Positions 1,928 through 20,723 of a stretch of DNA of 20,723 nt are shown here, piece after piece (within the stretch, counting starts at the first letter, position 1; each line of letters opens with the position of its first letter). The translations under genes and the position numbers were made by a program. Under the pieces are notes generated by a model that was not told the origin of the DNA, ran no database searches, and worked only from the letters and a program-made list of their open reading frames with translations. The stretch is taken from positions 1 through 20,723 of IMG/VR virus record IMGVR_UViG_3300044799_000121. One strand, 5' to 3'. The DNA comes from a virus.

Positions 1928-4900
1928 TTAAATAGTAGGTAACCCGTATTTATTAGCTAAATAATTATAAATGAATACTTCTTCGGCTAAATTATCTGAT
2001 ACCTTTCTTATTATTATTTCTCTATATTCAATATTACCAAAATAGGTTGTTAATTGATACCTGCATCCAAGTGTTAAACCATTGGGTTGAGCTGTTGTAC
2101 TATTAAATGTGATTTCACCTATATTATTTAATTGAATAGTTGATGTTGCTGCATTAGAATTATTTTTTACTCTTATTATTCCCCATGTGTTTATTGCTAA
2201 GCTTAATTGCGTTCCCGCAATAACATTCCATAATATATTAGGAGTACCCGGCGTTTCTTGTCTAAGTGAACAATAAGTAGAATACCCATCTAATATATAC
2301 TTATGAAGAGTCCAAGTTGGCTGTCTTAAAACTATATACATTGTATATGGTCTTAATAATGCAAAACCTCTTTGTAAATAATCTCCAACACCGTCAAACA
2401 ATACTCCATTACTACTCCAATGTGGTGTTCCACCATAACCTGTTAAATCACTATCTACATACCCATATTTAGTATTCCATCTTGTTACATGATTATTTTC
2501 ATCTTTTGTTATTGATGCTTCATCTGTAGAATCATAAAAACTTACAACATTTCCATCATCAATAGTATTACCATTCGCTTGATTATTTGTTACCGTTCCA
2601 AGGTCGGCTATAATAGCTTTTACTGCTGTGTCACTTAAATGTGATCTTATTTCATTATAACCTGCCACATTTACATATATCCTTCTTCCTGCTGTTCTTG
2701 TGTTATTAATATCATTAAGTAAAGTATCAACCATTGCCGTTGCTAAACTATATCCAATAGGAGTATTAAGTGAAATATAGGAAGCATCCACCAAATTTGC
2801 AAAATTTCCTCCTGAAGTATAATTTGTTGCTCTAAATGTTGTTAATCTAAAACTTAAAAGATTAGTTGTAATTAATCCTATATCACCCGAAAGAGTTGAT
2901 GTTCCTGTAACATATAATTGTTCTAATAAAGTCAATCCAGAAACACTCCCAGTTAATGTATTATTGCCAAGTACTCTTAGTACAGTTAATAATATATGCC
3001 CTGATATATCTCCCGATAACGTATTCGTTGCATTATCACAATATAAATATGTGAGTAGTATTAAATTAGTTATACTACCTGAAAAAGGTCTGTGACATTG
3101 AATATAATTCAATTTTGTAAGGAGAGTAATATCCCCGGTTATAGTATTACTCCCTAATAGAAACAAAGAAGTAAGTTCATAAAACTTAGAAATATCCCCC
3201 GATAATGTATTATTCCCTTGTACATTAATAATTTCAATTTTCGATAATTGAGTAATATTACCACCCAAACTTGGAGCATCAGTTCCAGATGTCCAAAGTT
3301 CAATATATCTAAGTATGTTTTTATTGATAGTTAAATTTGAAGTACCGGACGTACATTTTATATAAATAGTAGTGACTACTTCAGGCCAAACATTAAGTGT
3401 TTGTGTTTCCCCTAATGTGCCCGCAGCGTCAGTATAAAAATAGGCATTACCATCTAATGTAAATTGAAGATCCTCTCTGCTGCGAAATTTAAATGTTGCC
3501 ACACCAGTTCCATTACCAGTTGTCGCAACAGTTAATGTAAGTTGTGTTGAAGTAAATTCGACTCTTGAATATGGCAAGTAATGCATTCCTTTAAATCCCC
3601 TGGCACGATAATAATAGTTTTTACCTAACGTAAGTCCAGTATCAGAATAATCTGTTTCTCCGGGTGCTAAGACAGAAATTTCAGAATAGTCTATCCCATC
3701 ATTATCTGATCTTTCAATACTTATACTATCTGTACTATTTAATCTGTTTTTACATCTTATATCAATCTGATCATCTATTGCTGATGGTCTGGATAATCTT
3801 AAATCAATATAAAACAATAGTTCATATAATTCAGTTCTGGTAATAAAATCTAATCCTATTAACTGACCATAATCAATAATTGCTTCAATTGTTTCTACCG
3901 GGCAGTTATTAGGTGGATCACCTCCTACTTTATGGCCAAAAATTGCAATGGCTGTCTTATCTGTTTTTGCCTTATCCATTGCAGCCGTTAGGGTTTCAAA
4001 AGCAACACCCACTCCATAGGCAGATAGTTTATAAAAACTACTTTTCCTTGTCATAAACCCCTGACTTACTGTTCTTGCAGTTTTATAATAATCATCAACA
4101 ACATCAATAATCCTATCATTAAACTGATCCCCCGGATATGCAAAATGATTTGGTGACGGAAGTCCATTAGCAACAAATAAAGCATTTGCTGCTTCTAAGT
4201 CTGCTCTAATTGAAGCATCATCCCCTGTGATTCCCGCCATTGCATGACCTTGTATATCATGCCCTGCTTCATGCATTTCTACAAGTTGTGACCATTGCAT
4301 AGCTGCTGGGTGATCTATATCTCCTCCCTCATAACCAATGAAATCAGCATCAGCCCAAATAGTAACAGGTATCCCTTTCTCTGTAAATAATGGAAATCCT
4401 GCTGTATAAATATCCAAATATCCATCATCAAAAGCAAGTAATACTTTCCCATTATTAAATGTTTCACTATCTTTGAAATATTGTTGACTCCAACTGTAAG
4501 AGGTATAGTAATAATTAATAAATAATTCCTCAACATCAGTAGCATCTAAATTATAATCAAATTCTTCAACACTGTCAATACTTCCAGAAAAGAAATTTGC
4601 TCCTTCATTATCACTACCAACATATAAATATATAGATAATAATGTAATACCAGATACTACTATTTCTTTACTGGTTGATGTAAGTGTTGCAGTTAAAACT
4701 CCATCAACATAAACAGTACCACTACTTGAAATTACCGAACCAGCACTTGCCCTAACAAAACCTGTTAGTCCTCCTTCTCCACTATAGTCAAGTAAATAAA
4801 AATCTCCATCATAATCAGCAAGAGACCTTAATTTAATCCTTATTGAGTAAACTCCATTTCTTATATGAGTATATGTAATACAACTAGAAGTACCATTAAA

Positions 4901-5044
4901 AGTTCCTACTCCATTAAAACAAGAAATATCAGTTGCAGTTCCACCATTAGATGAAATTACAAAGGGACTATTAAATGTCTCTTTCCAAACTGAACCTTCT
5001 ACATTATATGGAGTAGATACACCATACTTTCCTTCCTTTGACAT
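1928..5044 (-). CDS. Multidomain tail/adsorption protein with a NodB-type (CE4) polysaccharide deacetylase domain, LRR-like repeats and lectin folds
   Basis: A 1038-aa protein. Residues 15-180 are LamG-like (GTFNGTSSCITYTH; VDGVLTATLTSTSKEIVVSG). Residues 198-412 look like a CE4/NodB deacetylase: motif 1 AFDDGY (FDDG 205-208), motif 2 region GHDIQGHAMAG (261-271), motif 3 FAYPG (301-305), motif 5 IFGHK (His371). The usual second metal-binding His of motif 2 is Gly271, so activity is uncertain. About 415-500 is FN3-like (GLTLGKNYYYRARGF). About 592-735 holds leucine-rich-like repeats with a recurring NNTLSGDIS theme, one per roughly 21-24 residues. About 825-1038 is a second LamG-like domain (GVLFDGVGDYLQ, ILDGYS, FIYNYLANKYG). 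The gene begins 11 bases after the 190-aa gene. A role in binding and deacetylating host capsule or exopolysaccharide during adsorption is inferred from the domains and position. No signal peptide or transmembrane segment is seen. Confidence 0.85.
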   Translation of the reverse strand: MSKEGKYGVSTPYNVEGSVWKETFNSPFVISSNGGTATDISCFNGVGTFNGTSSCITYTHIRNGVYSIRIKLRSLADYDGDFYLLDYSGEGGLTGFVRASAGSVISSSGTVYVDGVLTATLTSTSKEIVVSGITLLSIYLYVGSDNEGANFFSGSIDSVEEFDYNLDATDVEELFINYYYTSYSWSQQYFKDSETFNNGKVLLAFDDGYLDIYTAGFPLFTEKGIPVTIWADADFIGYEGGDIDHPAAMQWSQLVEMHEAGHDIQGHAMAGITGDDASIRADLEAANALFVANGLPSPNHFAYPGDQFNDRIIDVVDDYYKTARTVSQGFMTRKSSFYKLSAYGVGVAFETLTAAMDKAKTDKTAIAIFGHKVGGDPPNNCPVETIEAIIDYGQLIGLDFITRTELYELLFYIDLRLSRPSAIDDQIDIRCKNRLNSTDSISIERSDNDGIDYSEISVLAPGETDYSDTGLTLGKNYYYRARGFKGMHYLPYSRVEFTSTQLTLTVATTGNGTGVATFKFRSREDLQFTLDGNAYFYTDAAGTLGETQTLNVWPEVVTTIYIKCTSGTSNLTINKNILRYIELWTSGTDAPSLGGNITQLSKIEIINVQGNNTLSGDISKFYELTSLFLLGSNTITGDITLLTKLNYIQCHRPFSGSITNLILLTYLYCDNATNTLSGDISGHILLTVLRVLGNNTLTGSVSGLTLLEQLYVTGTSTLSGDIGLITTNLLSFRLTTFRATNYTSGGNFANLVDASYISLNTPIGYSLATAMVDTLLNDINNTRTAGRRIYVNVAGYNEIRSHLSDTAVKAIIADLGTVTNNQANGNTIDDGNVVSFYDSTDEASITKDENNHVTRWNTKYGYVDSDLTGYGGTPHWSSNGVLFDGVGDYLQRGFALLRPYTMYIVLRQPTWTLHKYILDGYSTYCSLRQETPGTPNILWNVIAGTQLSLAINTWGIIRVKNNSNAATSTIQLNNIGEITFNSTTAQPNGLTLGCRYQLTTYFGNIEYREIIIRKVSDNLAEEVFIYNYLANKYGLPTI

Positions 5045-5055
5045 TAGCTGTTTAA

Positions 5056-5628
5056 TTAAACTGCAGTTAACGCACCATCAGAACTTAATGCCCTATATTC
5101 AGCATATATGGTCATGGTAGCAGCAATAGGTGCATCAGTGGTAGTATAAGTAAATCTTATATATGTTGCAACGCCTGTCTTTTTAACAAGTGAAAATTTA
5201 GAAAATGAAATATCATCTGTATTTTCAATCAATGCAGCCGCAGCATTATTTCCTATCCCCCAGGTAACTGCATTATCAGCCATCTTTACAACAATAGTAC
5301 CTATTGCAGCACCACTAAGTACACCATCAGCCTTTGTTAGTTGAACAGTTGCTGTACCATCATACATATCAAAAGACCCAACTGTAAGATTAGCAAGAGT
5401 TGTTTTTGTAGTAATAACTCCATAAAGTCTTGATATTTCTACTGCACCTATCACATTAAATATATTAACACTCGCAGTTGTATTGCTAGCACTTAATGTT
5501 ATTACCTTACTTACAGGAATTACCTTTACAACAGTTAAGGCATCTACAACTGTGTCAACTGTTGTAATTAATCCATCAGTAACTACAAATTTTGTATTAG
5601 CATCTGTTTTAGTTAATTGATTTCTCAT
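5056..5628 (-). CDS. Hypothetical 190-aa beta-rich virion/tail protein
   Basis: I do not recognise the family. The 190 residues are rich in Thr, Val, Ala and Ile with alternating hydrophobic stretches, as in beta-structured virion proteins. There is no signal peptide, Cys or transmembrane segment. The C-terminal half (KFSLVKKTGVATYIRFTYTT, then ATMTIYAEYRAL) has the regular strand pattern of a beta-sandwich. The ATG at 5628-5626 overlaps the TAA stop of the 500-aa gene by one base (TAATG), so translation is probably coupled and the two products may be made in similar amounts. The next gene encodes the large deacetylase-containing protein. A small tail or fibre-associated structural role is inferred from context alone. 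Confidence 0.7.
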   Translation of the reverse strand: MRNQLTKTDANTKFVVTDGLITTVDTVVDALTVVKVIPVSKVITLSASNTTASVNIFNVIGAVEISRLYGVITTKTTLANLTVGSFDMYDGTATVQLTKADGVLSGAAIGTIVVKMADNAVTWGIGNNAAAALIENTDDISFSKFSLVKKTGVATYIRFTYTTTDAPIAATMTIYAEYRALSSDGALTAV

Positions 5629-7130
5629 TAGTATTGTCTCCTACACTTTAATATCACGGTATTAGTAGCCGCAGTAGCAGTTATTAAAAATCTTATATGA
5701 CGATAGTTAAAATTATCAAAATCTACAGCGAATAACTTAGTTTCATTAGTTGCAGCAACACTTTGTACTGTTGTATCAAGGACAGAATTATAACCATATA
5801 CCCCAACCCAATCTGTAGTTGCTGTATCTTCATCATTGGTAATTTCCCATGTTAAGGTAGTTGTCTCACCAGCACCATCAATTAACTTACCAGTAATAGA
5901 AAGATTTTTATATGCTCCAAAAGGCATTCCAGTTGCTGCCGGATAATATGTACCTGTTGCAACATTAGTTGTATCAACTATTGATTCTTCAATATATTGC
6001 TGATTAAGAGGACTTTGTTCTTGTGTCTTAATAAGATCTAAAGCAAGATCATAACCCTTTTTAGGTCCCACTAAATATACAAGTACAATATCACCTGTAA
6101 CAAAATTATCTGTATCCGCCAAGGTAACAACACCAGCGGCTACAACGACATTTGTTAGGGGAATATCTGTTACAACATTAGTAGTAACTGCTATCTTTTT
6201 AATAGAGCCAGATACAACATTAATTGCTTCTAATGTAAAAGGTAGTCCCGCAATTGTTATTGTTTTAGTACCATTATTAATGGTTGCAGTAAAGTCACCA
6301 GTAGCATTTGTATATATAATATCTCCACTGGCTCCAATAGGATATATAATTTTCCTTGGTACATTAGTTACCACAACAAATGTATCTGTTGCAGCAAAAG
6401 ATGCATTAGTAATTGACAATACATTACCTGCTATTGTCATAGGGGAATCCTCCCTATGAAAAACACTAACTACACTGAAGGTATTATTTATTTGTCTTAC
6501 AAATTCTATATCTTCTGCTACAAACGCTGTTATACCAGCAGGATAACCACTTAAAGTAATTTGTGTTGCAGCAGTATATGCAGTGGTAAAATCTCTTGTA
6601 GCAATAGTTGATGCCTTACCTACATAGTTATTACCATCTATTATACTTGCAAGATTAAGATTAGCATCTCTTGAAACATTAGTACCTATTACAAAAGTAT
6701 CAGTTGCTCCAAATGTAGCTCCAGTAACTGTTAGTACATTAGCCGCAATTGACATTGCAGTATCATCTCTACTATATGTCGCAACAACAACTCCTGCGGA
6801 ATTAATTTGACGGACAAATTCAATATCCTCATCAGTAAATCCAGTTACCCCTGCAGGATAACCACTTAATGTAATTGTCGTACCAGCTAAATAAGCTGTA
6901 GTAAAATCTCTTCCAGTAGCCGTTGATGGTTTACCTACGTAAGTATTACCACCTACAGTAGTAACATCAACTTCTATATCTGCCATATCCACCTCAGTAC
7001 CATGATGGTCTACAATCATCACCTCACCAATAACCCCAACAGCCTTTTTTCCACTTGATGTTAAGTAGCCAACATCTTTAAGTTGTGGATCAAGTTTAAT
7101 GCCGTTATGGTTCGTTAGAATATCACCCAT
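5628..7130 (-). CDS. 500-aa tail-associated protein with a tandem domain duplication
   Basis: First gene of the unit after the promoter at 7154-7184. Residues 60-155 and 165-260 are close tandem copies at an offset of 105 residues, sharing YVGK, RDFTTAY, ITLSGYPAG, EDIEFVRQIN and TDTFV. A third, more diverged copy is recognisable at about 278-355 (GDFTATINNGTKTITIAGLPF ... NFVTGDIVLVYLVG). The N-terminal 55 residues look different (GKKAVGVIGEVMIVDHHG) and may attach the protein to the virion. The last 110 residues form another beta-rich segment (LSITGKLIDGAGETTTLTWE ... NYRHIRFLI). No enzymatic motif is seen. The layout suggests an elongated fibre or tail-decorating protein of stacked beta domains. 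The family is unknown to me. Its stop overlaps the next start. Confidence 0.75.
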   Translation of the reverse strand: MGDILTNHNGIKLDPQLKDVGYLTSSGKKAVGVIGEVMIVDHHGTEVDMADIEVDVTTVGGNTYVGKPSTATGRDFTTAYLAGTTITLSGYPAGVTGFTDEDIEFVRQINSAGVVVATYSRDDTAMSIAANVLTVTGATFGATDTFVIGTNVSRDANLNLASIIDGNNYVGKASTIATRDFTTAYTAATQITLSGYPAGITAFVAEDIEFVRQINNTFSVVSVFHREDSPMTIAGNVLSITNASFAATDTFVVVTNVPRKIIYPIGASGDIIYTNATGDFTATINNGTKTITIAGLPFTLEAINVVSGSIKKIAVTTNVVTDIPLTNVVVAAGVVTLADTDNFVTGDIVLVYLVGPKKGYDLALDLIKTQEQSPLNQQYIEESIVDTTNVATGTYYPAATGMPFGAYKNLSITGKLIDGAGETTTLTWEITNDEDTATTDWVGVYGYNSVLDTTVQSVAATNETKLFAVDFDNFNYRHIRFLITATAATNTVILKCRRQY

Positions 7131-10527: not shown

Positions 10528-10959
10528 TTAAAAAATGTAAAGTTTAAAAGCATTTGGTAGAATAGATAGTAAGGATTGCATAGCAATTGTAGAATCTGCC
10601 ACATCTATATTTCCATCTTTATTAAGATCTACAAAGTTCATTCCTGGTAATATACACCCCTCTGTATCAACCTTCTTTCCAGAAGCATAATTTCCAATGT
10701 GGATTTCTACAGCAGTTCTTCCCGGTACATTATTCAGTAAGAAGCATTTGCCTTTTGTAGGAGAATAGATTTTTACTACTTCATACACTCCTTCTGGTAT
10801 ACAGTCTATTTTTTTAGTATTTATAGGAAATGGAATTACAATCTTAGGTAGTTCAATAGTTACACATTGGTATATAAGGTTACATTCATCAAATATACAT
10901 AATATTCCCTGAGTTTCCTTAAAATTATACTTTCTACTTATTATTACATTCATTGACAT
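10528..10959 (-). CDS. DUF5675-like protein with an embedded EF-hand-type calcium loop
   Basis: The 143 residues match my memory of the DUF5675 family found in phages and Bacteroidota: LxCxTIELP near 35, DCIPEGVYEVV (52-62), NVPGRTAVEIHIGNYAS (77-93), DTEGCILPG (98-106). The biochemical role of that family is not known to me. Between GCILPG and the C-terminal helix lies DLNKDGNIDVAD (111-122), which fills all six EF-hand ligand positions (D1, N3, D5, N7, D9, D12), so calcium binding is plausible. The preferred start is ATG 10959; a second ATG two codons on (10953) is also possible. The gene sits just after a long hairpin (10967-11005), unlike its tightly packed neighbours, so it may be expressed separately from the head genes. 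Confidence 0.75.
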   Translation of the reverse strand: MSMNVIISRKYNFKETQGILCIFDECNLIYQCVTIELPKIVIPFPINTKKIDCIPEGVYEVVKIYSPTKGKCFLLNNVPGRTAVEIHIGNYASGKKVDTEGCILPGMNFVDLNKDGNIDVADSTIAMQSLLSILPNAFKLYIF

Positions 10960-12285: not shown

Positions 12286-12726
12286 TTATCTTTTTTGTAT
12301 TTTTAAATACATTTTCATTTTATTTAATAGATCTATAGAGTCTTTTATTTGTCCTAAAACTAAATTACATCTTTTACACAAAAGACCTCTAATTATTCCA
12401 GTAGTATGATCATGATCTACTGATAAAAATTTTAAAATTCCATGTTGATTACATCCGGTTTCTTCATTACCACAAATTGCACAGGTTCCATCTTGGGATT
12501 CTAACAATATATTATAATCTTTTAATGTAATCCCATGTACAACTTTTAAAACAGAATTTTTACAGATATCTGGATGTCTTAGTTTATAACGTTTATTTCT
12601 TTTACTACACTTTTCTTTATTACTATTATTATAACTTCTCATGTAAGAATTATAACAGGTAGTACATCGTAATTTATAGTAAGTAGATCCACATTTCTTA
12701 CAAACTTTTATTTTTTCAACATTCAT
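12286..12726 (-). CDS. Endonuclease VII-type HNH nuclease, free-standing mobile gene
   Basis: The 146 residues match the recombination endonuclease VII family (T4 gp49-like His-Me finger nucleases). GITLKDYNILLESQDGTCAICG (65-86) is the family's entry motif. LSVDHDHTTGIIRGLLCKRCN (101-121) carries the HNH-type DHDH core (104-107) and Asn121. Cys82/85 and Cys117/120 form the zinc site. A second Cys pair set at the N-terminus (C9, C12, C21, C24) looks like an extra zinc ribbon, followed by a Lys/Asn-rich helix (SNKEKCSKRNKRYKLRHPD) that may bind DNA. Stand-alone copies lying between phage structural genes often behave as homing endonucleases. This one sits between two structural genes with 4 bases upstream and 32 downstream. 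A resolvase role in packaging is the alternative. Confidence 0.85.
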   Translation of the reverse strand: MNVEKIKVCKKCGSTYYKLRCTTCYNSYMRSYNNSNKEKCSKRNKRYKLRHPDICKNSVLKVVHGITLKDYNILLESQDGTCAICGNEETGCNQHGILKFLSVDHDHTTGIIRGLLCKRCNLVLGQIKDSIDLLNKMKMYLKIQKR

Positions 12727-15245: not shown

Positions 15246-16739
15246 TTAACGAAGAATAGAAGGAATAATACGAGCAGTTTTTTTCATATTGGTAATTTTT
15301 ACACCACCAATAAATCCTTTAAATACAGAATAACCGTCTACCGAAGTAGCCATCATTCTAGGATCTGTTCGATTATTATATGGAGAGAATGGATCCCTCA
15401 ATCCAGGTATATACCCAAAGAATTCTTCCTCATCTTTAACACTAACCTTAGAAATATTTGCGCTTCCAGCAGTCGTACCAACATCAAATATCTCATAGAT
15501 ATAAGAACTGGCAAGACCACCATCCGGGTGACGTAAGGTATTAGGATAACCATCTTTCATTGGGTCAATAGTAAGTTTGAATTTTATACCATTAACAGCA
15601 ACATAATTCAAAAATTGACCTTCATCCAAAGTAAGTTTTCCACCTTCTGTCTTAATATTTACATTAGCCTGTAGATAGGTAATTGCATTGGCTTTATTAA
15701 CAGCATCTTTATGAAACTGATATGCTCCATACTCACCAGTATTTACAATAAACTCACGTTTATCTTCTGGTATTTTACCATAGGACATATCCATAGCAAA
15801 ATCTGTCAACATATCTAAACTAAAGGTATTATATGTTAATACGTTACCATATTCCATTTGCTCATATAAACCAAAGCCAGAACGAATTGTATTACCAGAT
15901 TCACCCTGATGTCCATATGTACCATCAGATAATTTGTTAGATTTACCATAACCTATAAGACGAGCTTTATCACGTTCAAACTGTACGTAGAAATCCCAAC
16001 CAAGTTTATCAATCCAACGAGTCTGAGTCTTGCCATTCTGATCTATGAAAGCAAATGCCAGAGGTTTATTCTTGCCCTTACTGATCATATTACCAGGAAC
16101 GTCATAATTCTTACGAATCATTGATTGAACATTTTCCATCTGATAGGGAGCAGTATGATGAACACCTGTCCCTCTTTTAGAGAGTTCCTGTTCTACCATA
16201 CCAAACAGTTCTGACCACATTGTATTGGCTGCTAAATCAGCTGCCGGAACCCAAAGTGTATCATCGCCAGAAAAGAGTTGTACTTTATAACGCCAGTAAT
16301 TACCAAACTGTACCGGATCTTCAATAACCCTTAGTTGATATACCTCAGGTTTTGAGCCAACAATATGTGATGTAATTTCAAAGTATCTTTCAGGAAACAA
16401 CATATAAAAGATACCTCTATTAAGACCAGCCTGAACTGCATCTGTTACAACAGTTGTACATGCTAAATCTGAAAAAGCAGCTTTTAGAGGAATACTTCTT
16501 TCATCTGATCCCTGAAGGAACCATCTGTAAACAACATCATCATTAATCCACTCAGTAGGAAGCTTATTTATAAAAGAAACAAAGTTGTCTGAACCAACAT
16601 TAAGTTCATACAATCTATTCATTGTTTTGCTTATAATTTCAGGCTCCTGCATACCAAGCCAACCTAGATGACTTTCACGTGTTAAACCACTCCAGTGTTT
16701 TGGATCAACTATCTGAAGTTTTGAAATCAAATTTGCCAT
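15246..16739 (-). CDS. Major capsid protein, crAss-like phage family
   Basis: The 497-aa protein forms the icosahedral head shell (HK97 fold known for this family). Blocks that I recognise from crAss-like capsid proteins, in order: VYRWFLQGSDERSIPL (70-85), YQLRVIEDPVQFG (134-146) followed by YKVQLFSGDD (151-160), MVEQELSKRGTGVHHTAPYQ (181-200), SMIRKNYDVPGNMISKGKNK (206-225), DFYVQFERDKARLIGYGKSN (249-268), SGNTIRSGFGLYEQME (281-296), TYNTFSLDMLTDF (302-314) and REFIVNTGEYGAYQFHKDAV (328-347). The start at 16739 has an AT-rich leader with no Shine-Dalgarno. Its 5' neighbour is not the scaffold gene directly but an inserted GIY-YIG endonuclease, 25 bases away. A terminator hairpin follows. 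Confidence 0.9.
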   Translation of the reverse strand: MANLISKLQIVDPKHWSGLTRESHLGWLGMQEPEIISKTMNRLYELNVGSDNFVSFINKLPTEWINDDVVYRWFLQGSDERSIPLKAAFSDLACTTVVTDAVQAGLNRGIFYMLFPERYFEITSHIVGSKPEVYQLRVIEDPVQFGNYWRYKVQLFSGDDTLWVPAADLAANTMWSELFGMVEQELSKRGTGVHHTAPYQMENVQSMIRKNYDVPGNMISKGKNKPLAFAFIDQNGKTQTRWIDKLGWDFYVQFERDKARLIGYGKSNKLSDGTYGHQGESGNTIRSGFGLYEQMEYGNVLTYNTFSLDMLTDFAMDMSYGKIPEDKREFIVNTGEYGAYQFHKDAVNKANAITYLQANVNIKTEGGKLTLDEGQFLNYVAVNGIKFKLTIDPMKDGYPNTLRHPDGGLASSYIYEIFDVGTTAGSANISKVSVKDEEEFFGYIPGLRDPFSPYNNRTDPRMMATSVDGYSVFKGFIGGVKITNMKKTARIIPSILR

Positions 16740-16764: not shown

Positions 16765-17406
16765 TTACGATTTATATTTCCAAACATATCCACCAACTGT
16801 CTTATATCCATAACAATTTTTCAAACAGTGGTTAATATTCTTATTACTTATTTTTAATTCTTTACCAGCAGTAGTTGCAGAATCCCATTCTTTAATAAAA
16901 ACCATATTTTTAGTATATTGCAAAATAGGAATTCTACGTGCCAAACCATTATTAATATTATGTTCAGTTGAGTGTTTTCTACCTTTAAGTATTTTACTCA
17001 TAGTTTCTCCATACTTTTTCTTACTTTCTTCAGAATGGTGTCTACCTTTTGACCAAGTATTTAAACCTATGCGAGACTTACTCATTTTATCTCTAGTTTC
17101 TTTGGAGTGGTGTATTCCTAAACAATTACCCGCTGTTTTACAGATATTAAAATATGGATTATAAATATTAATAAAACACTGTTCTTTTATAACTAATCTT
17201 TCTTTTTCACACTTTATTAAAACTGAGAATTCCAAATCTCCTACACCATATTTATTATAATGTCTTTGAAGTTTTATATTCCCATGTCTATTATGTATAA
17301 GATCACATAAATGAACACTTTTTCTATTTAAAAGATTAACTGCAGAACCAATATAGCATCTCTCAGGTTTACTCTTGGACTGAATTTTATAAATACCACT
17401 TTCCAT
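16765..17406 (-). CDS. Free-standing GIY-YIG homing endonuclease with NUMOD-type DNA-binding tail
   Basis: A 213-aa protein. The catalytic domain (1-95) has GIY at 4-6, YIG at 18-20, Arg28 in NLLNRKS and the metal-binding Glu75 in IKEQCFINIYNPYFN. Residues 97-157 hold NUMOD3-type repeats (HHSKETRDKMSKSRIGLNTW; GRHHSEESKKKYGETMSKIL; KGRKHSTEHN). Residues 160-211 resemble a NUMOD1-like helix-turn-helix (DSATTAGKELKISNKNINHC ... GGYVWKYK). It cuts DNA at a specific site to spread its own gene. It starts one base after the scaffold gene stop (TAATATG) and ends 25 bases before the capsid start, so it is intergenic and not intron-borne. ATG 17406 is preferred to an upstream TTG at 17418 that overlaps the scaffold gene. 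Lys/Asn-rich codon use differs from the Thr/Ala-rich neighbours. Confidence 0.9.
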   Translation of the reverse strand: MESGIYKIQSKSKPERCYIGSAVNLLNRKSVHLCDLIHNRHGNIKLQRHYNKYGVGDLEFSVLIKCEKERLVIKEQCFINIYNPYFNICKTAGNCLGIHHSKETRDKMSKSRIGLNTWSKGRHHSEESKKKYGETMSKILKGRKHSTEHNINNGLARRIPILQYTKNMVFIKEWDSATTAGKELKISNKNINHCLKNCYGYKTVGGYVWKYKS

Positions 17407-17407
17407 A

Positions 17408-18658
17408 TTAACTGCCAAACATTCCTCTCATACTCTCGATATTATCTTTAGAGGTTTTATCTTCTTCCAAGCTACGTAGCACATGTGCCCCAGTCTTAGA
17501 AGCAGTATTGCTTTTATCTTTCAATGCCTTCTCCAAATCAGATATCTCAGATGTAACTTTAGCCTGAGAGGCTTTATTCCAAGGTTTATCCTTCTCAAAA
17601 TATCCAGTCTCTAGTAAATAAGCTATTCTGGAATCAAAAAACATAGGATCTTCAGCTCTTTTTGCCCAGATAGCATTAGTTGTTCTACCTTTACTATCCT
17701 GAACTGGTTTTGTAATATCCTCAAGCATCTTAACCTTAGTTTGTTTATTTATCTGTACCCCAGGAATTATCTCACCAAGACTATTAATGCCTTCTTTTAA
17801 CGATTCTAAACTACGTCTGTTTTCTTCTTCCTGTAGTTTTGTTATACGTTGGGCTTCCTTTTCTTCAACAGCAATCTCTTCTTTAACTAAATCCCTTAGA
17901 TCATTCAAGTACCCTTTAGAATCCTCAATATCATCCCCAAGATCAACACTGCTTTGAACAGCTTTTTCTATCTTGGCATCAGACATCTTAGTAGTTAACT
18001 TAAAGTAATCTGTCATCACCTGCTTACGCAAGTCAACATTTTCTTCCTTACTAAGTTCATCAGGTTTAATACCATCAAATCTAGTCTTTAATGAAAGAAG
18101 ATCACCAGCAGAATCTACCGAAACACCCTTACCAATAAGATTTAAATACTCCTGATACCCAGCATCCAAATCAGTTTTTGCTGATGTGATGTTTATATCT
18201 ATCTCATCCTTAATAAGATTACGAAGAGCATTAGCTTCACCAACACTCTTTGAATCCTCTAAGAATTTTTTCTCATCAAAAGACGATAAAAGCCCCTGCG
18301 CAACTAAGTCCCTAGCAAAGATTACAGTAAAAGAAGCGTCAGAAGTTTTTTCAGTAGTTGTTTTATTAAGGGAGGCAGAGGCTTTATCATCTGTTTTTTC
18401 AATATCCTCAACAACTTTATCAACTGTTTTCTTATCCTGATCTAATTCTGTAGTTTGCTTTTCCAGAACTTTGTCTATATTATCTAATAAAGATGTCTTT
18501 TTATCATCCTTATACTTCTTGTCTTCCTTTGCAGGAAGATCTTTAGTAGTGTCATCAATTGCCGGAATTGAATCTAAAACACTATTTATATCCAGTGTGT
18601 CATCAAATTCTAGCATTTCATCTAAACTCTGATCATCAAATACTCCTTTTGTTGCCAT
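17408..18658 (-). CDS. Putative capsid scaffolding/assembly protein
   Basis: The 416-aa protein is very acidic and Lys/Asp/Glu-rich with long helical, coiled-coil-prone stretches: KTSLLDNIDKVLEKQTTELD near 55, VKEEIAVEEKEAQRITKLQE followed by EENRRSLESLKEGI near 270, and KVTSEISDLEKALKDKSNT near 370. There are no Cys residues and no membrane or catalytic motif. Low-complexity charged proteins encoded between portal and major capsid genes are usually scaffolds that guide procapsid assembly and then leave. A pattern PMFFDSRIAYLLETGYF (340-356) suggests a folded C-terminal patch that may contact the capsid or portal. A virion-internal protein is the alternative. No protease gene is adjacent in this window. 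Confidence 0.7.
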   Translation of the reverse strand: MATKGVFDDQSLDEMLEFDDTLDINSVLDSIPAIDDTTKDLPAKEDKKYKDDKKTSLLDNIDKVLEKQTTELDQDKKTVDKVVEDIEKTDDKASASLNKTTTEKTSDASFTVIFARDLVAQGLLSSFDEKKFLEDSKSVGEANALRNLIKDEIDINITSAKTDLDAGYQEYLNLIGKGVSVDSAGDLLSLKTRFDGIKPDELSKEENVDLRKQVMTDYFKLTTKMSDAKIEKAVQSSVDLGDDIEDSKGYLNDLRDLVKEEIAVEEKEAQRITKLQEEENRRSLESLKEGINSLGEIIPGVQINKQTKVKMLEDITKPVQDSKGRTTNAIWAKRAEDPMFFDSRIAYLLETGYFEKDKPWNKASQAKVTSEISDLEKALKDKSNTASKTGAHVLRSLEEDKTSKDNIESMRGMFGS

Positions 18659-18753: not shown

Positions 18754-20723
18754 CTATTTTCCACTAGCCTTGGGGGTTGGTTTATTAGCAATCTGCCTCT
18801 TAATATCAATTTCACGATCTTTTTGTGCCTCACTTCTCATATTGGATCTTCGGGTTTCTTCCAGAGCTGAACGTTTTAAATCATGTTCAACCGTCTTATC
18901 CTCCGGCTGTTGTTCAGTATCCTGAGAACTTCCTGCTTGTATAAGAGCTACATCTATAGACGTTTCACTGCGTTTATCAATTTCATATCTCCTAAGAGTT
19001 TCCTCTCTATCAACCTGTTCCTGCTTTTGCTGTAAAGCCATTTTAGCCTGCTCAGCATTCTGTTGTCTAACCTGTTCTTCAAAAGCTTCAAACTTACGTT
19101 GCAAAGCAGCTGGATCTTGTGTACGATAAAGTTCCATAACCATAGAAAGATTACCTCCATTCTGCATAAATGGTTGAACAAGGCTCTTAATAGTATTCAT
19201 CATATCCTTATCCACAATAGAATTTGTAACATAAATCCCATATTCAGACTCAGCAAATAAACCACCATCAAAGTCTAAAACAGCCTGACTACCATCAGAT
19301 AGAATAAATTGACGCTTAAATTTCTGATCCTTCCAAGCAATCTTAGCAGTTTCTATATATGCCTCTAATGCACGAACTCTAAAATCATCATGAATACTAA
19401 AATACTTAGCAGTATTCAACGAGCTTTGTTTTACTCCCCTTTCCACACCACCAACAGTTTCTCTACTTTGGATAGCCCCTAATCTCTGGTCAGTGATGCC
19501 AACTATATCCTGAACCCTGTTTTCAAGGAATGTTAGAATCCCTAACAAGTTTTGGATAACAGCGGCATCACCTATTTCAATAGAACCAGAACCCCGATTC
19601 ATTGTACCAGCAAGTTTGCCAAGAGCTGCACCTTTCTGTCCCTCATTAAACTCATCTTCAAATACTATTTTAAACTGATCCATGTAGAATAAGAATTGAT
19701 CCATGGTAAAATTAGAGGGGATCATACTAGTACTTATTCTTGCCATTCTACCTTTATAAGTCTTCATTTCTTCCCACAATTTGTGCATGAAGAAGTTATA
19801 GGTCAACTGATATGGTTTTCCAAGGCTTACAAATGAAAGTGATTTTGAGTCATTTGTGTTAAATATACTACCTATAATTCCAGGGTGACACTTACTAGGG
19901 TTGTCCATACTTCTGAACTGTATGGCTCTTGGACCCATTTTAACATAAATATCATCTGCCAACTTTGTTGCTTCATTCCATTCCCCAAGCCAAATCCACT
20001 TTATATTGTCTTTTTCAATATCAGATAATGGGTAGTCTTCATCAACATATTTCTTTTGTATGTCTCCATTATCATCTATAAATTGTAAAACACCAACCTT
20101 TTTCATTCCCTTCCACAAGGCACGTAATTTTCTTACATTGCCATAAGCATCAAAAGAACCTCCAAAGAAAGTTGTCTGACTTGCATTTGCGTTAATAACA
20201 GATCCAATACCACCCTGTTGATCTATCCACGATGTAAGATCTATTGGAACATTTCTTAATGAACGATTAAATATCTTACCAGAAGCAGATGACGTATAGG
20301 CGTACCCATCTTCCAGTTTCTTAATTTCTGAGTCTTTTAATTCATCATGAAACTCATCAATAATTTGTCCAACTGGAACGAAGGATAATTCTATAATAAT
20401 ATCAGAATCCTCTATCTTATAATTATTTCCACTTCTAATAGTAAATAATGATAATGGATTACCTTTCCGCAGAATAGGTTCTCCACCCATAATATCAGTA
20501 ATAGCTATTTCCTCACCACAAGTTAATAAGTCTTCAAAATCTTTACTAAATGTCTCCTGCATCCCCTGGTTTACATAACCATATTGAATGATTTGAGATG
20601 CCATAAGTTCACGTCTATCACGATAATTAAACTTCATCCACTTGGCTTGGGCTTGGATGGCTTGTGATGCCTCATCCTGAGAATAGTCTTTTGAAACTAT
20701 TCTATCCAAAATAGATTTATTTA
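18754..20723 (-). CDS. Portal protein, crAss-like phage family (5' end outside window)
   Basis: At least 655 residues are visible. The frame is open to the right edge (NKSILDRIVSKDY...), and no convincing ATG is present, since the codon at 20709 is TTG. The true N-terminus therefore lies outside the window. Blocks recognised as portal-like: KDFEDLLTCGEEIAITDIMG followed by GEPILRKGNPLSLF, YQLTYNFFMHKLWEEMKTYK with GRMARI, IGDAAVIQNLLGILTFLENR and ITDQRLGAIQSRETVGGVER, the usual region before the C-terminal arm. The last 120 residues are a Gln/Glu/Arg-rich coiled coil (FEEQVRQQNAEQAKMALQQK) ending PTPKASGK, probably inside the head or flexible. Twelve such subunits form the DNA entry channel. 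It stops at TAG, the only non-TAA stop among the well-supported genes, 95 bases before the scaffold start. Confidence 0.85.
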   Translation of the reverse strand, partial: NKSILDRIVSKDYSQDEASQAIQAQAKWMKFNYRDRRELMASQIIQYGYVNQGMQETFSKDFEDLLTCGEEIAITDIMGGEPILRKGNPLSLFTIRSGNNYKIEDSDIIIELSFVPVGQIIDEFHDELKDSEIKKLEDGYAYTSSASGKIFNRSLRNVPIDLTSWIDQQGGIGSVINANASQTTFFGGSFDAYGNVRKLRALWKGMKKVGVLQFIDDNGDIQKKYVDEDYPLSDIEKDNIKWIWLGEWNEATKLADDIYVKMGPRAIQFRSMDNPSKCHPGIIGSIFNTNDSKSLSFVSLGKPYQLTYNFFMHKLWEEMKTYKGRMARISTSMIPSNFTMDQFLFYMDQFKIVFEDEFNEGQKGAALGKLAGTMNRGSGSIEIGDAAVIQNLLGILTFLENRVQDIVGITDQRLGAIQSRETVGGVERGVKQSSLNTAKYFSIHDDFRVRALEAYIETAKIAWKDQKFKRQFILSDGSQAVLDFDGGLFAESEYGIYVTNSIVDKDMMNTIKSLVQPFMQNGGNLSMVMELYRTQDPAALQRKFEAFEEQVRQQNAEQAKMALQQKQEQVDREETLRRYEIDKRSETSIDVALIQAGSSQDTEQQPEDKTVEHDLKRSALEETRRSNMRSEAQKDREIDIKRQIANKPTPKASGK

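Follow-up and report, generated by a model that had tools for sequence, protein, structure and literature searches.

Introduction

The canonical CE4 motif 2, HxxxH, completes a His-His-Asp metal triad. Among virion proteins, the turret head protein of HFTV1 is a CE4 that has a galactose-binding-like domain and, in each trimer, three Zn sites, and a role in host glycan degradation during adsorption has been proposed for it (PMC12494034); it was the only direct precedent that we found in the literature on CE4/NodB domains in virions or crAss-like phages. On the cellular side, CtAxeA of Clostridium thermocellum and BoPDA of Bacteroides ovatus do without the second motif 2 His and hold the metal on an Asp-His dyad; in BoPDA, water sits where the second His would be. 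CtAxeA acts on acetylxylan, and BoPDA, the nearest dyad analogue from a Bacteroidota, is inactive on the substrates tried (PMC11713874). The residue whose loss goes with inactivity in CE4s is the motif 5 His and not the second His of motif 2 (PMC11713874), and NodB variants thought to be dead or metal-free have usually lost more residues (PMC10967932).

CE4s are already known from virions (minor tail proteins of actinophages and the HFTV1 turret), and so is the absence of the second His (CtAxeA, BoPDA), both of which lower the surprise at the sequence-only reading of the present locus, a phage tail protein with a CE4 domain from which one metal-binding His is missing. New, as far as our searches show, are the combination of a virion-type CE4 with a putative dyad site, the occurrence of such a domain in a crAss-like phage, and how plastic motif 2 is among phage CE4s. 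CrAss-like phages are viruses of Bacteroidota-type bacteria and are among the most abundant human gut viruses; the means by which most of them pass Bacteroidota capsules are, to our knowledge, not known. A virion enzyme that removes acetyl groups would offer a testable route past these capsules.

Fold and domain layout of the CE4 protein

The window, i.e. the whole stretch of DNA that we analysed, is a virus contig of 20,723 nucleotides (IMGVR_UViG_3300044799_000121). The protein of interest and its parts are laid out as follows:

1928-5044, (-) strand: multidomain tail-region protein with a CE4 domain, 1038 aa (ORF list)
4532-4741, (-) strand: N-terminal Laminin_G_3/ConA-like lectin match of carbohydrate-binding type, residues 102-171 (PF13385)
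3809-4462, (-) strand: NodB/CE4 domain, residues ~195-412 (PF01522, AF2, structural match to 8qpg)
2855-3238, (-) strand: LRR-like 21-residue repeats, residues ~603-730 (weak)
1940-2503, (-) strand: C-terminal domain in common with phage proteins without assigned function, residues 848-1035 (phrog_21809, E=6.2e-5)

With the whole protein as query, residues 196-318 match PF01522 with E=3.1e-11 and 43.8 bits, the curated cut-off being 23.1. The AlphaFold2 model of the domain (pLDDT 92.9, pTM 0.90) has the distorted TIM-barrel NodB fold; its input was an alignment of 48 related domains, mostly canonical CE4s, which may bias the model toward canonical geometry. CE4 structures dominate its solved-fold matches (Z 15-25): the HFTV1 turret head protein 8qpg is the best (Z 24.7, 2.1 Å, 206 residues), cellular CE4 enzymes come next, and the dyad CE4 CtAxeA (2c71) is Foldseek match no. 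2. Among predicted viral structures, the top matches include Bacillus phage G gp673, HFTV1, and tail or esterase proteins of Arthrobacter and Lactococcus phages. A Pfam score above cut-off, the model, and the matches to CE4 structures together show that the match is not due to chance and that the NodB fold is secure. The CE4/NodB domain proposed from sequence at 3817-4447 (residues 200-409) thus stands, and the domain proper takes in residues ~195-412.

The best family-level sequence matches are HfsH/PgaB-type cellular NodB deacetylases, with which the window shares an AYP-type motif 3. However, the NCBIfam models for HfsH, PgaB and IcaB are distant matches only, far under their cut-offs (NF050820 for HfsH, E=1e-13 and 51.6 bits against an equivalog cut-off of 400; TIGR03938, E=4e-6), and we rejected HfsH or PgaB as the identity of the domain on these scores.

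Of the accessory modules named in the sequence-only reading, the lectin is upheld by a PF13385 (LamG) match slightly under cut-off (E=7.3e-6, 26.6 bits against 27.6). The LRR-like module is upheld weakly: Pfam E values of 0.02-0.08 fall below cut-off, the internal periodicity is 21 residues, and the assignment has a sequence basis only, the single-sequence fold of residues 415-1038 being too poor to use (pLDDT 37). The FN3-like module was dropped, as no match to one was found in the 1038-aa protein. Residues 825-1033 are 28% identical to a jumbo phage protein. A PDB sequence search with the N- and C-terminal parts gave no useful match, and an IMG/VR search with the whole protein or the CE4 domain as query gave no close relative.

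Active site without the second metal His

The active-site features, including a candidate substitute Arg, map to the following positions:

4421-4432, (-) strand: motif 1, FDDG, residues 205-208; Asp206 as catalytic base and Asp207 as metal ligand by CE4 motif assignment
4232-4246, (-) strand: motif 2, HAMAG, residues 267-271; His267 kept, Gly271 at the second-His position, shortened loop (sequence and alignment)
4130-4144, (-) strand: motif 3 region, FAYPG, residues 301-305, with Pro304 (Pro invariant in 21/21 virion CE4s)
4073-4075, (-) strand: Arg324, candidate substitute for the motif 3 Arg (conserved in 19/21 virion CE4s)
3929-3943, (-) strand: motif 5, IFGHK, residues 368-372; His371 as catalytic acid (His invariant in 21/21 virion CE4s)

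FDDG, GHDIQGH (261-267), FAYPG and IFGHK (His371) all lie where the first inspection had put them. The canonical motif 1 Asp-Asp pair and motif 5 His are both present in the window, and the canonical metal triad is not: motif 2 reads H267-AMA-G271, a loop without a second His, which sets the window apart from plain CE4 members. Gly271 does stand at the second-His position, as originally read; in the alignment, however, the helix after motif 2 begins ~3 residues sooner than its counterpart in phage G gp673. The His thus appears to have gone together with about that much of the loop, which describes the change better than a point substitution does.

Dyad CE4s lack the second His and retain the motif 5 His, and the window shows both features. 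It resembles CtAxeA (2c71/2c79) and BoPDA (4dwe) in these respects and in its motif 1 Asp pair; CtAxeA and BoPDA, in contrast, are cellular, non-phage proteins (an acetylxylan esterase and a capsule-locus protein) and are not the nearest sequences. FAYPG has no Arg, and the sequence comparison suggests that Arg324 may replace the motif 3 Arg, as a different Arg does in NodB2 proteins (PMC10967932). Relative to other phage CE4s, the window also has a 7-residue insertion containing His245.

Motif 2 among phage virion CE4s

We compared 21 virion-type CE4s (the window included) with the 28 remaining domains of the tree set; the domains had been collected from bacterial or archaeal genomes as well as phage records and viral contigs. 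Every one of the 21 virion CE4s falls inside a single 25-row cluster of the tree (98/89), together with L060, L093, L022 and L028; the window's exact place within it is unsettled because of a long branch. The equivalents of Asp206, Asp207, His267, Pro304 and His371 are invariant throughout the 21. The second His, by contrast with these fixed residues, is at +4 in 4 of the 21, at +7 (HxxxxxxH) in 11, and absent from 6, namely the window (Gly), two Arthrobacter phages (Gln), a TM7 phage (Asn) and two viral contigs (Asp, Asn). The carriers of the +7 His (L094, L099, L100, L102, L121-L127) are mainly minor tail proteins of Gordonia and Arthrobacter phages, and we found no published description of this arrangement in phage virion CE4s.

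A His at +4 is thus missing from 17/21 phage virion CE4s vs. 1/28 other domains (L038, Glu), and the motif 2 class requires at least 7 changes on the CE4 tree. The relatedness of the rows keeps these from being counted as independent events, and pairing "phage tail" with "no +4 His" on the tree left too few independent pairs for a test; we accordingly read the difference between 17/21 and 1/28 as a pattern of the clade and not as statistical proof. Queries with the TM7-phage and L094 domains brought in no further virion CE4s, and PgaB matches labelled Acinetobacter "phage MD-2021a" were left out as pieces of bacterial genome (pga operon).

Several virion relatives sit among structural genes: L009 and L095 adjoin tape measure genes, L012 lies in a baseplate cluster, the L094 gene lies between terminase and portal, and others are annotated as minor tail proteins. 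The actinophage minor tail proteins (Gordonia, Arthrobacter; "glucosaminyl deacetylase", "esterase") share with the window the tree cluster, the five core residues and an altered motif 2, but their second His is mostly moved to +7 or replaced by Gln, their hosts are different, and identity is roughly 25%.

We tentatively propose that phage virion CE4s are a distinct lineage with a loosened metal site, in which the second His was repeatedly lost, or shifted from +4 to +7, with no change in base, first metal pair or acid; at the far end of this range, the window might then encode a virion deacetylase with two metal ligands (Asp-His), the first from a crAss-like phage. The motif 2 pattern also suggests that virion deacetylases can do without a three-ligand metal site; this, if true, would change dead/alive calls for CE4 domains in annotation.

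Two members of the cluster, L022 (1551 aa) and L028 (887 aa), are very large ORFs on bacterial MAG contigs and may be prophage or surface proteins. Bacillus phage G gp673 (L005:577-3654) joins a GH113-like glycosidase (E=1.5e-23) to its CE4 in a single protein.

Genomic context

The head genes on which the placement of the contig is based are:

15246-16739, (-) strand: major capsid protein (MCP; phrog_11589, E=3.8e-93; 34.7% to phi14:2)
18754-20709, (-) strand: portal protein (phrog_6547, E=1.8e-88; 35% to phi14:2)

Judged by MCP and portal, the contig belongs in or beside Crassvirales: the MCP is 33-36% identical to crAss-like MCPs, and head-gene order agrees with that of Cellulophaga phage phi14:2, with homologues of portal, g092 (a structural protein), MCP, g090 and g089 in order. 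The crAss-like affiliation and the structural-gene context of the CE4 protein, both first suggested from the sequence, agree with this portal-MCP block. Two homing-type endonucleases are inserted among the structural genes, a GIY-YIG at 16765-17418 adjoining the MCP and an endonuclease VII/HNH-type at 12286-12726.

Past the head genes, the window has a tail-fibre-like gene (phrog_7389, upstream), ORFs without assignment, and the CE4 gene, which has the same strand as the structural block and tight spacing. The CE4 gene lies roughly where phi14:2, whose tail genes there were confirmed by mass spectrometry, carries the virion pectate lyase g086. g086 has a comparable position in a crAss-like structural block and is a polysaccharide-active virion enzyme, as the CE4 domain would be; it is, however, of another enzyme class, with no significant sequence match to the window protein. 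No homology was found between the unassigned window ORFs and the phi14:2 tail genes, so the positional comparison is loose.

A PF01522 search across the full length of 16 reference crAss-like genomes, with controls working, gave no match; a whole-protein search of 16 crAss-like genomes gave no match and had no positive control, and the PF01522 search was used in its stead. No crAss-like phage was among the tblastn matches of the CE4 domain in 50,697 phage records.

Proposed function and alternative explanations

We favour, as a probable reading, that the window protein is a virion adsorption protein of a crAss-like phage whose CE4 domain deacetylates host surface polysaccharide of Bacteroidota with a two-ligand metal site. 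Its gene position points to a tail fibre or spike-like protein of the virion. By analogy with known CE4s, the domain probably trims acetyl groups (N- or O-linked) from host surface sugars during attachment, which would let the particle bind or reach its receptor, with the N-terminal lectin-like domain gripping the glycan. Asp207 and His267 would be the only protein ligands of the metal, a dyad as in CtAxeA and BoPDA, and water would stand in for the second His; Asp206 and His371 would act as base and acid. The closest solved fold, HFTV1 gp31 (8qpg/8qpq), likewise places a virion-type CE4 behind an N-terminal carbohydrate-binding-type domain; HFTV1 gp31, however, is the capsid turret of an archaeal virus (Haloferax), has the second His (NHGYNH) and was seen with Zn, whereas the window is from a crAss-like phage, carries the domain in a tail-region gene, and lacks the second His.

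The sequence-only reading had left the choice between an enzyme with an altered metal site and a sugar-binding relic. The second metal His is indeed absent, Gly271 offers no side chain, other binding-type domains are present in the same protein, and CE4 pseudoenzymes are known (BA3943, 4M1B, 2VYO), all of which would suit a dead CE4 fold kept as a lectin-like tail module that binds an acetylated glycan and does not cut the acetyl. BoPDA, metal-bound yet inactive on the substrates tried, likewise counts against the enzyme, as binding does not guarantee turnover. Nevertheless, base, remaining metal-site residues, Pro304 and acid are kept, and their invariance in 21/21 virion relatives favours a working dyad deacetylase over a relic; CtAxeA is active without the second His, and described dead CE4s have lost more residues, or the motif 5 His. 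We therefore regard the relic as doubtful, and the enzyme as the better-supported half of the earlier alternative.

An active enzyme could also retain three ligands, with His245, His262, Asp274 or Asp275 replacing the second His. His262, Asp274 and Asp275 are near the metal site in sequence, His245 is carried by the window's insertion, and the 11/21 virion CE4s whose His lies three residues further on make a moved ligand plausible in the clade; none of the four residues, however, is common to the other virion CE4s without the second His, and we consider a third ligand improbable. That the protein is non-virion, acting inside the cell or during lysis or encoded by a cargo gene, is very improbable: its virion assignment rests on gene position, but strand and spacing go with the structural block, lectin-like, LRR-like and phage C-terminal domains share the polypeptide, and relatives occur among tape measure, baseplate and minor tail genes.

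Other genes of the window that drew attention are a 587-aa protein at 128-1891, perhaps a further adsorption protein, whose C-terminal domain is Lcl_C-like (PF07603, E=0.002; phrog_4245, E=5e-12); a 500-aa ORF at 5628-7130 without database match that contains an internal duplication (two copies of ARDFTTAY...ITLSGYPAG...); and a DUF5675 protein at 10528-10959 in which DLNKDGNIDVADS, close to the C-terminus, resembles an EF-hand (PF13202, E=0.1).
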